Assembly: GCA_028695935.1 (NCBI GenBank)
Contig: JAQVHY010000014.1
Span: 1-38,064 of the forward strand
Length of the DNA stretch: 38,064 bases
Direction: 5' to 3'
DNA from: Desulfobacca sp.
GTDB taxonomy: Bacteria; Desulfobacterota; Desulfobaccia; Desulfobaccales; Desulfobaccaceae
The notes under the pieces are model-generated. The model was not told the origin of the DNA and did no database searches. It was given only the letters and a program-made list of their open reading frames with translations. Shown here piece by piece: positions 26,317 to 31,973 of the stretch. Made by a program: the position numbers and the translations under genes. How positions within the stretch are numbered: the first letter of the stretch is position 1; each line of letters starts with the position of its first letter.

Positions 26317-27135
26317 ATGACGGAGATCGAGTCTAAGAAAGCTAGCCAACCAACGGCACGGGAACGGCCCCAAGCCCTGGTGATCGAAATCCTTCCCGGG
26401 CAGGCGGCCGAAGGCCTAATCGAGATCTTCGAGCCCGGCAGTTACGAAGGTAAATCCCTGCGAAAGTTGTGTGAGGAGACCTTAAGTAAAACCGATTGGA
26501 GTATTGAAGAACAACAAATCGTCGAAGACATTAAGAGACAGCTTACGGGTGGCAAGTTACTCTGTAGAGGTAAAGAAGTAGATAACCAGGCTCGCGCTTA
26601 TGCCGAATCAGAAACCACTGAAGAAGGAGAACAATACCTCTACGTTCCGGTTCGGGCCATTAAACCTCAAGAAGGCGGTCGGCCGGTACCCAATGCCGGT
26701 GGTCACATCCGCAAGGCCACGGAAAGCGATCTGGATAGAATCATCGAAATTGACCGGCTGTCCTTCTTGGACTATTGGGAATATCATAATTTCAAACAGG
26801 CTCTAGACTGTATATTTTATGTATATGAGAATACCGAAATAATCGGCTACCTGATCGGCTGTATCTGTGAACTGGGGAATAGAGCAGTAGTCCTGAGAAT
26901 TGCCGTACATCCGGAGCACCGTGGAAAAGGTATCGCCACCGCGTTAATGGAAACCTCTATTGCTAACTTTAAACAGAGAAAAGTTAAAACTGTAGAGTTA
27001 GATGTTGAACTGGTTAAAATCGGGGCGGTAAAACTATATGAGCGCATGGGCTTTAGAATCATGAAAGTGCTTTCCCTTGACCAGGAAGGTAACAATAGCT
27101 TTTACATGATGAGATTAAACTTAAACCAAGATTAA
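26317..27135 (+). CDS. GNAT acetyltransferase with N-terminal candidate ubiquitin-like domain
   Basis: Residues 130-272 are a RimI-like GNAT domain: HIRKATESDLDRIIEIDRLSF, the acetyl-CoA loop IAVHPEHRGKGIATALM and AVKLYERMGFR. The first 121 residues are not part of GNAT. They read as strand ALVIEIL (20-26), strand GLIEIFEP (33-40), helix KSLRKLCEETL (46-56), strand GKLLCRGKEV (79-88) and strand QYLYVPVRA (106-114), then PQEGG at 117-121. This is the order and ending of a beta-grasp ubiquitin-like fold, and GKLLCRGKEV resembles the RLIFAGKQL stretch of ubiquitin. It is an inference without structure. The ATG at 26317 has ggag upstream. It is the first gene of the E2/ClpX/JAB/E1 run. Confidence 0.75.
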   Translation: MTEIESKKASQPTARERPQALVIEILPGQAAEGLIEIFEPGSYEGKSLRKLCEETLSKTDWSIEEQQIVEDIKRQLTGGKLLCRGKEVDNQARAYAESETTEEGEQYLYVPVRAIKPQEGGRPVPNAGGHIRKATESDLDRIIEIDRLSFLDYWEYHNFKQALDCIFYVYENTEIIGYLIGCICELGNRAVVLRIAVHPEHRGKGIATALMETSIANFKQRKVKTVELDVELVKIGAVKLYERMGFRIMKVLSLDQEGNNSFYMMRLNLNQD

Positions 27136-27173: not shown

Positions 27174-28325
27174 ATGCAACAGTTGTTAGAATCTGCTCAG
27201 GAGATAGTTAGCGCAGGAGGTTTCATTTATCTCCCCCTGTTGTTAGATCCGGATATTGCCGGCGAGATCCAAGACCTGCCGGGCAAGCTCCGGCCGCAAA
27301 CAGATAATACCGTGATCACCATCGCCGGGCAAGCTTTTGTCAAAACCTTGAGTTTGGCTTCCCTCATTGAAAACTACGAGAAAATCCACCCGGCCCCTTA
27401 TGAGCATCTCCGGAAGACCTGTTTACAGCGATATGGCTGTGATCCGGAGGGTAATGGCACCCTGACTGACAGCCAGATCAGCACCATCGTGTTCGAGGTT
27501 TTGCCCCATTTTTTGCGGCGTAAAAGCGGCTTGGCGAGATCCGGGTTTACCGAGCCGGAAATATTGCACCTGGTCGCGGAAAACATCCAAATCTCTGAGT
27601 CTGACCTAAAACAGGCCGACCAGCTTTTAGAGCTTGAGTCGCGGCAAGCCCTCCTAGCCAGGCTGGACGCCGCGCTAACTACCCGACCCACGCCTCCTGA
27701 AGGGCGGATGAGCGCGCCCCGGCTTAAACATTGGTTCCGTCAGGCGTTAGCATGGAAAATAATTAAGCAGGAGAAAAATCGTCTCCAAGACTTACTGGCC
27801 GAACGGCAACAACTGGCCCAGCGGGGCCATTATCTGCCCCTCTTGCTGGCCCTGGCCCGGCAAGGCCGGTTGGAAGTCGAAGGCTTCGGGTTTTTTAGAA
27901 CCGGCATTGGCAATGAGTACATTATCTATAAACACACCGGAGAATACGCCCTGAAAGATTATTATGGTCGGATTTATCTGTTCCCTGATTGTCGGGTGGC
28001 AGTTTCTACCCTGAGCGGTTTACAACCTATGGTGTTAGACCAATACAAACATCCTTTTTTGTTTGGCTATGCCGCCCGGCAAAAAATCTGCACCGGAGAT
28101 TATGAGGCCACCAAGCAGTTCAATGCCAAAAACGTTATTCTGGCCTTGGAGGAAGGTATCAACGCCCTGTTTTACGGTTACAACAGCCGACGCCGCAACG
28201 GCTATCATAGTCTGGATCGCATCACCCAGCATGTTCGCACCGTTGATTTTGACGAATACCGTATTTCCACCGATCATCCCAAAATTATCTCCGGGCAGGT
28301 CGAGGTCAAAAACCAGTATCACTGA
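27174..28325 (+). CDS. Protein with C-terminal E2 (UBC)-like domain
   Basis: The 383-residue protein has a mainly helical N-terminal part (1-225) that I do not recognise. Residues about 235-345 follow the E2 ubiquitin-conjugating core: strands EYIIYKHTGEYALKDYYGRIYLF and CRVAVSTL, then KHPFLFGYA, ARQKICTGDY and a following helix NVILALEEGINALF. The HPx...ICxG pattern is what prokaryotic E2-like families keep around the catalytic cysteine, here Cys306. The usual Asn of the HPN triad is Phe, as in many bacterial E2-like proteins. It begins 38 bp after the GNAT gene (ggag upstream of the ATG) and sits in the same run as an E1 and a JAB protease, which strongly supports the reading. Confidence 0.72.
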   Translation: MQQLLESAQEIVSAGGFIYLPLLLDPDIAGEIQDLPGKLRPQTDNTVITIAGQAFVKTLSLASLIENYEKIHPAPYEHLRKTCLQRYGCDPEGNGTLTDSQISTIVFEVLPHFLRRKSGLARSGFTEPEILHLVAENIQISESDLKQADQLLELESRQALLARLDAALTTRPTPPEGRMSAPRLKHWFRQALAWKIIKQEKNRLQDLLAERQQLAQRGHYLPLLLALARQGRLEVEGFGFFRTGIGNEYIIYKHTGEYALKDYYGRIYLFPDCRVAVSTLSGLQPMVLDQYKHPFLFGYAARQKICTGDYEATKQFNAKNVILALEEGINALFYGYNSRRRNGYHSLDRITQHVRTVDFDEYRISTDHPKIISGQVEVKNQYH

Positions 28326-28326
28326 T

Positions 28327-28785
28327 ATGGCTCTGATCCAGCAATTAAGAGGGCAAAGGGCGCGACGGAAAAGCAAAACGCCATTTCGGATCACCCTCTT
28401 CACCAGGATCTGCTTTCTGGTTCAGACGTATGCTCTGGGCGCCAGTTTTATTGACCAGCTTGATAAGCCGCCGACTCAACTGACGGAAGAAATCTGGGGG
28501 CGCGATCCGGTTCCCGCTAAGGCCCCTTGGCAACCACCGCTGTTTGCCCTGGCCACTCCCGGCGAATACCAGGTAGCCATGGCGATTATCAGCAGGATCA
28601 ATAATCCTTATTTGCATTTTGTCCAGTCTCCGGCGGAGATCTTGCTGTGTCAATCACTGTTTGAATTAAACCCGGATATCAGCCCCGAGGTGCTGGCCAC
28701 TTACCATTTTGCCGCCCTCTGGCAGCGCCAGCTCGCCCGGCCGCAGAACCCCTCGGGCACGATAGGAAAGGCAGGAGGTATTTAA
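28327..28785 (+). CDS. Unknown 152-residue protein of the ubiquitin-like operon, ends Gly-Gly-Ile
   Basis: No family is recognised. The N-terminus is very basic (RGQRARRKSK). The body contains hydrophobic helices (ITLFTRICFLVQTYALGASFIDQL; EILLCQSLFELN) and a Pro/Trp-rich stretch (WGRDPVPAKAPWQPP). The last residues are GKAGGI. The ATG at 28327 begins one base after the stop of the E2-like gene, so translation should be coupled. The same frame is open further upstream, but there it overlaps that gene. It could be an adaptor or a substrate of the system. The Gly-Gly codons coincide with an aggaggt string, so the di-glycine may be fortuitous. Confidence 0.65.
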   Translation: MALIQQLRGQRARRKSKTPFRITLFTRICFLVQTYALGASFIDQLDKPPTQLTEEIWGRDPVPAKAPWQPPLFALATPGEYQVAMAIISRINNPYLHFVQSPAEILLCQSLFELNPDISPEVLATYHFAALWQRQLARPQNPSGTIGKAGGI

Positions 28786-28828: not shown

Positions 28829-29932
28829 ATGTTTGATAGATTATCCGAGGAAAGTCGGCGCCGCATCCAAGAAAAAATTGAACAACAACGGGAAGCCCAA
28901 GCGGCGGAGGCCATAGCGCGGATCGTTGAATTTGACCAGACCCCGGCTGATCTCAAGGCCTATTTAGACCGATTTGTGATCGGCCAGGAAAATGGCAAAA
29001 AGATTATCGCCACCGCCATCGCCTTCCACTATAAACGCTTAGGTAATGCCCTGAAACAGACCTTGGTGGACGAGGGCGGCGATGTCAGCGCGGCCCTGCG
29101 CCATACCCGCACTCCCAAAGCCAACCTGTTAATGATCGGGCCTACCGGCTGCGGTAAAACTTACACCTGTGAAACGGCCTCGGGCTTGGTCGGGGTGCCT
29201 TTTGTGGTCGAAGACCTGACCAAATTCAGCGAAACCGGCTACGTGGGCCAGAATACCAGTGATATTCTGGTAGATCTATTGGTCTCGGCGGGCGGCAACT
29301 CCCATTTAGCGCAGATGGGCATCGTCTATCTCGATGAAATCGACAAGATCGCCACCGAGAACGTCGCTTACCGGGATGTGTCAGGCCGGGGGGTGCAGAA
29401 AGGGCTGTTAAAGCTGGTCGAAGGAGTCGAAAATACCATTGAAATGGGCAAGGAAAGGATTGCTTTGTCCACCAAGCACGTGCTCTTTATCGCTGGCGGG
29501 GTGTTCGATAAGCTTGACAGTATTGTCGAAAAACGCATGGAGCGCCACGGGTTTTCCGGGACCTGGCAAGACCACCTCCTGACCGAGGACCTGGTGGTCT
29601 TTGGCATGGAACGGCAACTGATGGGCCGGTTTCCGGTCCGGGTGGTCTATGAATTATTAACCACGCAAGAACTACAGGACATCCTGGTCAGAAGTGAGGA
29701 CAGCCCGCTCAGGGCCTATATCAACGACCTGAAGGCCTGGGATATCGACCTGACCTTTGCCGATGAGGCGCTCAAGGCCATCGCCCAACGGGCCAAACAA
29801 GAGCGCACCGGGGCCCGCGGCCTGATCAGTATTATCCATCGGGTGCTATTTGAGGACATGTTCCGGCTGCCCGGCAGCCATACCGGCCCGCTGGCGGTCG
29901 ATGAACGATATGTGCGGATGCGACTGAATTGA
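28829..29932 (+). CDS. ClpX-like AAA+ unfoldase lacking zinc domain and ClpP-docking loop
   Basis: This 367-residue AAA+ protein aligns with the ClpX core: Walker A GPTGCGKT (104-111), pore-1 loop GYVG (137-140), Walker B IVYLDEIDK (165-173), RDVSGRGVQKGLLKLVEG (182-199), FIAGGVFDKL, LVVFGMERQLMGRFPV (256-270, with the arginine-finger region) and sensor-2 ERTGARGL (325-332). Two parts of true ClpX are missing: the N-terminal Cys4 zinc-binding domain, replaced by a charged helix (1-35), and the IGF loop that docks on ClpP (here the segment reads RHGFSGTW). It is thus a divergent unfoldase that probably works with another partner, plausibly the JAB protease, whose TTG start overlaps its stop codon (TTGA). 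Confidence 0.9.
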   Translation: MFDRLSEESRRRIQEKIEQQREAQAAEAIARIVEFDQTPADLKAYLDRFVIGQENGKKIIATAIAFHYKRLGNALKQTLVDEGGDVSAALRHTRTPKANLLMIGPTGCGKTYTCETASGLVGVPFVVEDLTKFSETGYVGQNTSDILVDLLVSAGGNSHLAQMGIVYLDEIDKIATENVAYRDVSGRGVQKGLLKLVEGVENTIEMGKERIALSTKHVLFIAGGVFDKLDSIVEKRMERHGFSGTWQDHLLTEDLVVFGMERQLMGRFPVRVVYELLTTQELQDILVRSEDSPLRAYINDLKAWDIDLTFADEALKAIAQRAKQERTGARGLISIIHRVLFEDMFRLPGSHTGPLAVDERYVRMRLN

Positions 29933-30726
29933 GATTTAAGAGCCTGTCACAACTGAAGCGTCCGGCCGCGATCGAAGTGGTCCTGGATTCCTTGCCCCAA
30001 GCGATTCGGATGACCGCCTACGCCCGGGCCAAGGCCTTTAAAATCAATGAATTGGTGCGGTCCATCTATGAGCTGAGCTATGAATGGTATGGCTATACCC
30101 TGGCCCGGCGAGATGATCCGGACCTCATCAGGGATATCGGCTTGCCGAAAAATGAGCAAAATGTCCTGGAATATACCAGTATTGACCCGGAGAAGATTGC
30201 CAGCTACCAGGAGTCGTTAGCCCCCGACTGCTTCATCAATGGTTGGATTCATTCGCATGGCGACCTGGATTTTCATGTCTTCTCGGCCACCGATGAGCAG
30301 AATCACCTCACCGTGCTCGATTATGTCACCGCCCTCTATAAAAAACCCATCGCCAAGAAGGAAATCGTCATCAAAGACTTAAACCTGTTGGTGGCCGGGC
30401 AATTCACCGACCAGGACCTAAAAACCGGCAGCGCCTGTCTGATTACCGATGTGCCGGTCAGCCAGGCCCGGATCCTGGAAACCATCTATGGCGGCTTCTG
30501 CTACGGCATCGTTATCGGCGACCAGGGCTGGCACCAGCAGGAAATCTATTATAAGCAGCGGGCCATCCTCTCAGGCCAGACCACTATCAGCCATAACCCC
30601 GCTGACATCGTCCTGGTGGACACCGGCCAGTCCCTGGCGGCCGCGGAACTCGCGGCGTTGGCCGCCGAAGTTAAAGACAAGATCAATCCGATTACCTATA
30701 AGCTCGAAAAGCTTGAAATTTTGTAA
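29929..30726 (+). CDS. JAB/JAMM (MPN+) metalloprotease
   Basis: The 265-residue protein contains a JAB1/MPN metalloprotease core. The JAMM residues are visible: candidate Glu52 (YEWYGYTLAR), His108 and His110 in GWIHSHG, Ser119 and Asp122 in FSATDEQN. The spacing is HxH-x8-S-x2-D, one residue longer than the canonical x7. JAB enzymes of this kind cleave isopeptide or C-terminal bonds of ubiquitin-like proteins. It starts with TTG overlapping the ClpX-like stop codon (4 bp) and ends 5 bp before the E1 gene. It should remove or process the ubiquitin-like modifier, or act as the peptidase of the ClpX-like ring. Confidence 0.88.
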   Translation: MRFKSLSQLKRPAAIEVVLDSLPQAIRMTAYARAKAFKINELVRSIYELSYEWYGYTLARRDDPDLIRDIGLPKNEQNVLEYTSIDPEKIASYQESLAPDCFINGWIHSHGDLDFHVFSATDEQNHLTVLDYVTALYKKPIAKKEIVIKDLNLLVAGQFTDQDLKTGSACLITDVPVSQARILETIYGGFCYGIVIGDQGWHQQEIYYKQRAILSGQTTISHNPADIVLVDTGQSLAAAELAALAAEVKDKINPITYKLEKLEIL

Positions 30727-30731
30727 TCATC

Positions 30732-31973
30732 TTGGCCACCGCAAGACTTGATCGACAACTACGCATCCCCGGTTGGAATCAGCAGAGTTTAGCCCACGCC
30801 CGGATCGGCATCGTCGGCGATGCGGACCGCCTGGCCTCATTGTACATCGTGTCGGCCGCGGCTTTGGGCCTGAACCAGTTGGTGGTCATCGCCCCCCGTC
30901 TGGATCCGGCCCTGATCGACACCGCCCACCAGGTTAATCCCGACCTTCACCTGGTGCATGTGGAAGGATTTTTCACCCACCCGGTACTGGAGGACGTCTT
31001 TACCGGCTGCCAGGTGCTGGTGGATCTCAGCCAGTATGGCCTGGCCAATAAATTATTGCTGGCGCAAGGCAGCCGCGCCCACCTGCCGGTGCTACGCGGG
31101 TTCGTTCACGTACTAGCTGATCAGCAAGGCTTCAAAATCTTTACCTATTTGCGAGGTCGCGAATGGCAGGAACTGGAGCAGTTGGTGTCCCCGCACAACC
31201 TACCCGGCCAGCCCTTGGATGACGGCGTCCTGGACATCATCGTGGCCGGGATCGTCCTGGAAGAAACTAAAAATCTCCTCATGGGGCAGCCGGTATCGAC
31301 CGAGGTGATCGCCTATCAGCGGCCGTTCCTGCCACCGCTGCTAAACCATCCGCGCATCTGTGTCGTGGGAGCCGGGGCCTTGGGCAATTTTATCGGACTG
31401 GGGCTGGCCTTTGCCGGCGCGACAGATATTACCTTCGTGGATTTTGATGTCGTGGAGCTGACCAACCTCAACCGGCAGGTATTTCTGGTGGACGCCCTAG
31501 GGCACAACAAAGCCGAGGCCTTGTCAGCCCGGCTGAACCAACTGTTCGCCCTGCGCAGCCGGGCCTGGCCTGTAGCCTGCGACCGCGATACCGATTTCTC
31601 ACCCTACCACATAATTTTTGATGGCGTCGATAATTTCGAAACCCGAATTATTTTAAGCGAAAAATGTCAAGCCCAGCAGAAAATCCTGATCAGCGGCGGC
31701 AGCGATGTCGCGGCCGGGCAGGTGGTGGTCTATGATCCGGCCCAACCGGGGCCTACCCCGGCCGAATTACTGGGACTGGCGGGGATTGTCGGTCGGCGGC
31801 GGACTAAGCCAAACCTGCACCCCCGGGCCTCTTGCCAATACCGGCCCGATCCCGCGGTCATCATGACCAACCAGATCATTGCCGGGTTTATGGTGGAGGC
31901 TTACCGCCGGTTGCTTAATGGTGACCAGCCCGCCAACATTTTCTATGAATCAAGCAGGGAGAAGAAATTCTAA
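30732..31973 (+). CDS. E1-like (ThiF/MoeB/UBA) activating enzyme with two Rossmann-like halves
   Basis: The 413-residue protein has two halves. Residues about 5-190 form a degenerate Rossmann-like half (RIGIVGDADRLAS, LNQLVVIAPRLDP; no intact nucleotide or metal motifs). Residues 205-400 form an active adenylation domain: VVGAGALGNFIG (211-222), VDFDVVELTNLNRQVFL (236-252, ribose- and ATP-binding Asp and Arg) and DGVDNFETR (297-305). A cysteine at 368 (RASCQY) is a candidate catalytic or structural residue. This inactive-plus-active layout echoes eukaryotic E1 heterodimers in one chain. It should adenylate the C-terminus of a ubiquitin-like protein. TTG start; last gene of the operon, followed by a hairpin pair. 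Confidence 0.9.
   Translation: MATARLDRQLRIPGWNQQSLAHARIGIVGDADRLASLYIVSAAALGLNQLVVIAPRLDPALIDTAHQVNPDLHLVHVEGFFTHPVLEDVFTGCQVLVDLSQYGLANKLLLAQGSRAHLPVLRGFVHVLADQQGFKIFTYLRGREWQELEQLVSPHNLPGQPLDDGVLDIIVAGIVLEETKNLLMGQPVSTEVIAYQRPFLPPLLNHPRICVVGAGALGNFIGLGLAFAGATDITFVDFDVVELTNLNRQVFLVDALGHNKAEALSARLNQLFALRSRAWPVACDRDTDFSPYHIIFDGVDNFETRIILSEKCQAQQKILISGGSDVAAGQVVVYDPAQPGPTPAELLGLAGIVGRRRTKPNLHPRASCQYRPDPAVIMTNQIIAGFMVEAYRRLLNGDQPANIFYESSREKKF

Follow-up and report, generated by a model that had tools for sequence, protein, structure and literature searches.

Among the described bacterial systems, the closest to the operon studied here are the type 6d operons, the PRTRC systems, Bil, CBASS and the Bub operons. 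The PRTRC systems are taken here to be of the same group as type 6d, and Cap2 of CBASS is a fused E1 and E2 that acts on a CD-NTase. In type 6d operons the E2-like protein lacks the upstream histidine and has a conserved downstream one (Iyer et al. 2006, PMC1779556, rows 6a-6e). In the anti-phage system Bil (BilABCD), a ubiquitin-like (UBL) precursor undergoes JAB-type processing, one half of the E1 is inactive and the other active, and the E2 is separate; BilA contains two ubiquitin-like domains, and the Bil E2 carries a CEHH motif (PMC11354881). Hundreds of bacterial Bub (bacterial ubiquitination-like) operons, ubiquitin-like and of unproven function, have also been reported (PMC13373217). 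Finally, there is a proposed precedent for UBLs that reside within larger proteins until a JAB enzyme releases them (PMC7159879).

Here we analyzed a window of 38,064 nucleotides, the whole stretch of Desulfobacca sp. DNA under study (contig JAQVHY010000014.1), in which a UBL fused to a GNAT acetyltransferase precedes an E2-like protein, a small protein, a ClpX-derived AAA+ ATPase, a JAB peptidase and an E1-like enzyme. Our best reading is that this operon works like the bacterial UBL conjugation operons and is set apart from type 6d, PRTRC and Bil by the features tested. As in type 6d and PRTRC, a small stand-alone UBL carries a conserved C-terminal glycine, E1, E2-like protein and JAB each have a gene of their own, and a further helical protein is encoded. 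The operon differs from type 6d in that the E2-like protein has an invariant upstream His293-Pro294 and no invariant histidine after Cys306, and from both type 6d and PRTRC in always including a ClpX-derived AAA+ protein. None of the PRTRC models matched at the cut-off, the only one to register being PRTRC_ThiF (45.5 bits vs 144.75).

Similarly, the operon resembles Bil in combining a precursor UBL with a JAB enzyme, an E1 with a probable degenerate and an active half, and a separate E2-like protein. Unlike in Bil, however, the UBL consists of one domain of about 100 residues, an AAA+ gene is present, and instead of CEHH the E2-like protein carries His293-Pro294 and Cys306, conserved Glu/His being absent at +6, +8 and +13 from the cysteine. 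The E1 core belongs to the same superfamily as in CBASS Cap2/Cap3, and the PADLOC E1-E2 models match the ThiF core only; in contrast to CBASS, the genes are separate, the UBL is dedicated, and no CD-NTase was seen in the list of open reading frames of the window. The likeness to Bub operons is drawn from their general description only. We found no paper in the open literature with a ClpX-type member in such an operon, and the operon may already be described in closed literature. If our reading is correct, the locus is a complete UBL cassette, unnamed in the resources searched, in which modifier, enzymes and AAA+ unfoldase are encoded together.

Operon organization and co-inheritance

Most loci identified in the searches described below share one arrangement, in which the UBL gene is followed by those for the E2-like protein, the small protein, the ClpX-like ATPase and JAB, with the E1 gene either last or first (Table 1). 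The order UBL-E2-small-ClpX-JAB-E1 is found in 24 loci and E1 comes first in eight, while many others are interrupted by contig ends. Of 297 genomes of the phylum, 15 are matched by the UBL profile, and the E2-like and JAB profiles match precisely these 15, which means that the three are inherited together or absent together, and that the distribution is patchy. This co-inheritance and the E1, E2-like and JAB genes alongside agree with the original prediction that the UBL supplies the modifier of the operon. The conserved operon, its co-inheritance, the predicted fold, the invariant Gly-Gly and the invariant catalytic residues were all computed directly.

Neither Pfam nor NCBIfam has a family for the small protein, whose conservation is the lowest among the aligned operon proteins (mean column identity 33%); a role as an E3-like or adaptor subunit would be a guess. 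The families found most often in the flanks look like chromosomal genes (one of them, judging from the sequences, is succinate dehydrogenase) and not like defence genes. PADLOC returned generic ThiF, AAA+ and one weak match only.

Table 1. Positions of the operon features within the window, and the evidence for each.
Feature	Position	Strand	Evidence
UBL-GNAT fusion gene, 272 aa, ATG start	26317-27135	+	Open reading frame; fusion also in G001, G002
N-terminal tail, residues 1-20, variable, probably disordered	26317-26376	+	pLDDT 43-62; poor conservation
Ubiquitin-like domain (fold supported, not proven), residues 21-121, PQEGG end	26377-26679	+	AlphaFold model; VIA-align rows; PQEGG invariance in 50 loci
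Gly120-Gly121, predicted mature C-terminus and predicted JAB cut site	26674-26679	+	Entropy at and one position after PQEGG
UBL/GNAT linker, residues 122-130, fast-evolving	26680-26706	+	dN/dS against G001 (nine codons only)
GNAT acetyltransferase domain, residues 131-272	26707-27132	+	PF00583; dN/dS
E2-like protein, 383 aa, His293-Pro294 and Cys306 (codon 28089-28091)	27174-28325	+	Invariant residues; AlphaFold model; VIA list
Small operon protein, 152 aa	28327-28785	+	In-frame part of the open reading frame ending at 28785; relatives in 42 loci
ClpX-derived AAA+ ATPase, 367 aa, without zinc domain or ClpP-docking loop	28829-29932	+	NF003745; alignment to own ClpX
JAB/JAMM peptidase, 265 aa, with a TTG start that overlaps the AAA+ stop	29929-30726	+	Invariant motif; Prok-JAB among relatives
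E1-like enzyme, 413 aa, Cys368 (codon 31833-31835)	30732-31973	+	ThiF 103.3 bits; invariant residues; E1 structures by profile

Predicted fold of the UBL

The AlphaFold model of the UBL, built on a 49-row alignment, has a pLDDT of about 94 over residues 21-115. Its DSSP assignment consists of strands at residues 21-27, 34-38, 80-83, 97-100 and 106-115 and helices at 48-57 and 63-76, followed by a coil tail. The original prediction, which spanned positions 26368-26679 (residues 18-121) and so ended exactly at Gly120-Gly121, had described a strand-strand-helix-strand-strand pattern; the order is as described, but two helices rather than one lie between strands 2 and 3. The stretch GKLLCRGKEV, singled out earlier for its resemblance to ubiquitin, forms strand 3 and the next turn, with G78, G79, L81 and G85 invariant or nearly so. 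The N-terminal tail (residues 1-20) is weakly conserved across the alignment.

Neither Pfam nor NCBIfam contains a family that matches residues 1-133, and the same holds for the 48 aligned relatives apart from chance-level matches. A sequence search of solved structures detected no relative of the UBL profile, and a Foldseek search with the model gave nothing significant, its top row being a ubiquitin-like protein (E 0.31). Realignment of the model with VIA-align yielded Z values of 5.7-6.7, where according to the tool's own note a Z below 8 may mean merely a common arrangement. The 50 rows obtained are, as read, ubiquitin, SUMO, ISG15, FERM or similar beta-grasp domains, and in several of them the Gly-Gly is in register, such that residue 121 of the model corresponds to ubiquitin residue 76 (5hpl) or SUMO-2 residue 92 (2ckh). 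Structure prediction, proposed at the outset as the check for a beta-grasp fold with an exposed tail, thus returned a topology that resembles the beta-grasp and ends in a flexible tail with the Gly-Gly. Since the VIA-align Z values lie below 8, a ubiquitin-like fold for residues 21-121 is supported by the model, not proven.

The Foldseek result and the failure of profile searches to find any ubiquitin family would also suit some other small alpha+beta fold that merely resembles a UBL, in which PQEGG would be a structural motif. We consider this very improbable in view of (i) the order of strands and helices, (ii) the VIA list composed entirely of ubiquitin-type domains, (iii) conservation that ends exactly at the Gly-Gly, and (iv) the exact co-inheritance of the domain with the E2-like protein and JAB, beside an E1 gene.

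Conservation of the Gly-Gly terminus

A whole-genome search of 99 related genomes identified 17 UBL relatives besides the window gene, two chance-level matches being left out. In this unbiased search, 14 of the 17 are stand-alone UBL proteins, typically of about 121 residues, which end exactly at PQEGG (L006, L015, L016 and L017), one residue beyond (L014), or, in the remainder, after a short divergent tail. In L011 the UBL continues into a long tail that is not GNAT sequence, and among the 17 relatives and the window gene a GNAT domain follows the UBL only in G000, G001 and G002, all of one genus. The earlier view of the acetyltransferase as the fused partner is therefore correct for this genus but not as a general rule, most relatives being stand-alone with an absent or a short and variable tail.

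Scanning a species-wide collection gave 49 UBL loci, mostly from Desulfobacterota, and together with the window PQEGG is present in 50 of 50 places. Because part of PQEGG was included in one of the patterns used for the scan, of which there were two, a bias was conceivable; we rejected an artefact of the search pattern because nine loci lacking that pattern, caught by the N-terminal one, still have PQEGG. In addition, a separate profile search of 297 genomes of the phylum retrieved 15 UBLs, every one of which aligned to model position 121. Homologues had been suggested as a check on the Gly-Gly, and they retain it without exception. In the 48 non-GNAT loci, the five positions of PQEGG have zero entropy and the next position has 3.5 bits, and the tails past the Gly-Gly range from 0 to 48 residues (median 5.5). 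Invariance of PQEGG with a drop in conservation directly after the Gly-Gly is the pattern expected of a processed ubiquitin-like precursor.

The fused acetyltransferase

The GNAT domain originally predicted behind the UBL is confirmed by PF00583, which matches residues 152-246 with 68.4 bits against a cut-off of 20.7. For ACETYLTRANSFERASE, the UBL shows a dN/dS of 0.09-0.10 within the genus and the GNAT domain one of 0.07-0.15; the linker, when compared with G001, reaches 0.71, a value resting on nine codons. Both modules are under purifying selection, and the maintenance of both while the joint between them drifts fits a cleaved fusion. No unfused GNAT relative turned up in the other loci. 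We also considered that it could be the RimI of this genome, and rejected this since a better RimI is encoded on another contig.

As all three genomes of the genus keep the fusion and conserve both of its parts, it is alternatively conceivable that the UBL stays on the acetyltransferase as an uncleaved domain for docking to the operon proteins, its role as a modifier being lost or reduced. However, the Gly-Gly and the UBL core are conserved at the low dN/dS given above, the adjacent E1, E2-like and JAB genes are intact, and the linker behind the Gly-Gly drifts, and we judge uncleaved docking to be unlikely. On the cleavage reading, the fusion is a naturally occurring case in which the probable cleavable tail of a bacterial UBL precursor is an enzyme.

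E2-like, JAB and E1 proteins

Residues His293, Pro294 and Cys306 are invariant in 47 sequences of the E2-like protein. The His-Pro motif precedes the catalytic-type cysteine with a His-to-Cys spacing of 13, the corresponding spacing in classical E2s being about 10. The AlphaFold model of the protein has a mean pLDDT of 85, and E2 enzymes dominate its VIA list, with Z values of 5.0-6.3 that are within the tool's common-arrangement range. Foldseek found no significant match to this model, Pfam and NCBIfam hold no family for the protein, and a sequence search of solved structures detected no relative of either the E2-like or the JAB profile.

In the JAB protein, Glu52, His108, Ser109, His110, Ser119 and Asp122 are invariant in 39 sequences. 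Its H-x-H ... S-x2-D metal site has one extra residue before the serine, the spacing of the usual JAB motif being one residue shorter. Prok-JAB scores 18.0 bits on the protein of the window, below the cut-off of 25, and matches 17 of the 39 members with a best E of 1.7e-4.

In the E1-like enzyme, NLNRQ, Lys260, Asp300 and Cys368 are invariant, and its profile matches solved E1/MoeB/ThiF structures in the sequence search. The first 190 residues open with an E1-like RLDRQ, and profile comparison of the first half with the second gave a global P of 1.1e-5, with a local probability of 2% and E of 0.024. Taken together, these sequence comparisons moderately support an E1 in which the first half is a degenerate adenylation domain and the second an active one of the ThiF type.

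An E1 of the MoeB/ThiF type would also serve a sulfur carrier like ThiS or MoaD, and JAB domains accompany sulfur-carrier genes in some bacterial operons (PMC1779556). The E1 would then adenylate the UBL, a sulfur donor would convert it to a thiocarboxylate, JAB would only trim it, and proteins would remain unmodified. This fits poorly with an operon whose fixed members include an AAA+ protein and an E2-like protein in which His-Pro and Cys are invariant. Among the commonest families in the flanks we recognised no gene of sulfur metabolism that recurs; a sulfur carrier thus appears improbable to us.

The ClpX-derived AAA+ ATPase

The ClpX model NF003745 matches the AAA+ protein with 271.9 bits, under its cut-off of 359. 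Like ClpX, the protein retains Walker A (GPTGCGKT), Walker B (YLDEIDK) and the GYVG pore loop; unlike ClpX, it lacks the zinc-binding domain and has a shorter ClpP-docking region. The reference for this comparison was L087, the genome's own canonical ClpX, in which the zinc motif and the MGF loop are present: in all 39 aligned operon members the zinc domain is absent and the ClpP-docking region comprises 24-26 residues vs 37. The operon protein is 40-44% identical to the genome's own ClpX-type proteins. Because the zinc domain and the ClpP-docking loop are missing, the protein probably unfolds substrates without passing them on to ClpP, and its sequence suggests ClpP-independent action. A further ClpX-like protein in the same genome, L086 (G000:C100:26756-27796; a 619 aa open frame), is 44% identical to the operon protein and keeps an IGF-like loop.

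Proposed mechanism

We consider it likely that the UBL precursor is matured by JAB, activated by the E1 and conjugated via the E2-like protein, and that a ClpP-free unfoldase acts downstream. The precursor of the UBL (residues 21-121) would carry a C-terminal extension, which in most relatives is a short tail or none, and in this genus an in-frame acetyltransferase that is probably freed as a separate enzyme; eukaryotic ubiquitin is likewise made fused to ribosomal proteins. The JAB of the operon probably cuts past Gly121, leaving the Gly-Gly end exposed. The E1 would adenylate this end and take the UBL on Cys368, and the E2-like protein would receive it on Cys306 and hand it over to target proteins. 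JAB may also strip the UBL off its targets, reversing the modification, and the ClpX-derived ATPase probably acts on modified proteins without ClpP, unfolding them or pulling them apart. Cleavage after Gly121, conjugation, the modified target proteins and the unfoldase role are what we infer.

More tentatively, the operon might tag proteins so that the ClpX-derived ATPase, devoid of ClpP docking, extracts or unfolds the tagged ones, in parallel with ubiquitin and Cdc48, which we regard as possible rather than probable. The likeness of the AAA+ protein to Cdc48 is an analogy of role and not homology. The operon makes it directly testable whether bacterial UBL tags steer proteins to ATP-driven unfolding.

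Genomic distribution and neighborhood

Outside Desulfobacterota, the 49 loci include one in a Methylomirabilota MAG and one in a MAG labelled Nanoarchaeota (L068, JAHIUF010000029.1); the latter has the operon with a UBL 46% identical, and mis-binning or transfer are both conceivable. No UBL relative was found in the viral contigs searched, no E2-like match in the plasmids and no JAB match in the phages, so there is no sign of mobility in those collections. CP070843.1 contains two UBL copies, L046:9980-10378 and L050:9974-10357, where L050 is accompanied by the full operon and L046 by a fragment resembling the E2-like gene only. At L022:9765-12359, the UBL adjoins the ClpX-like and JAB genes, the E1 is represented by a fragment only, and the E2-like and small genes were not found; this operon is possibly decaying or reduced.

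In L025, L035, L039, L043, L045, L046, L049, L050 and L066, the gene immediately upstream of and codirectional with the UBL encodes an ArsR-type regulator (HTH_5, 40.7 bits in the one tested). Its gene ends about 20 bases or less from the UBL match, and 65 bases from it in L045, whose match begins at residue 21. With their own upstream ArsR-type regulator, expression in these nine loci may be stress-controlled.
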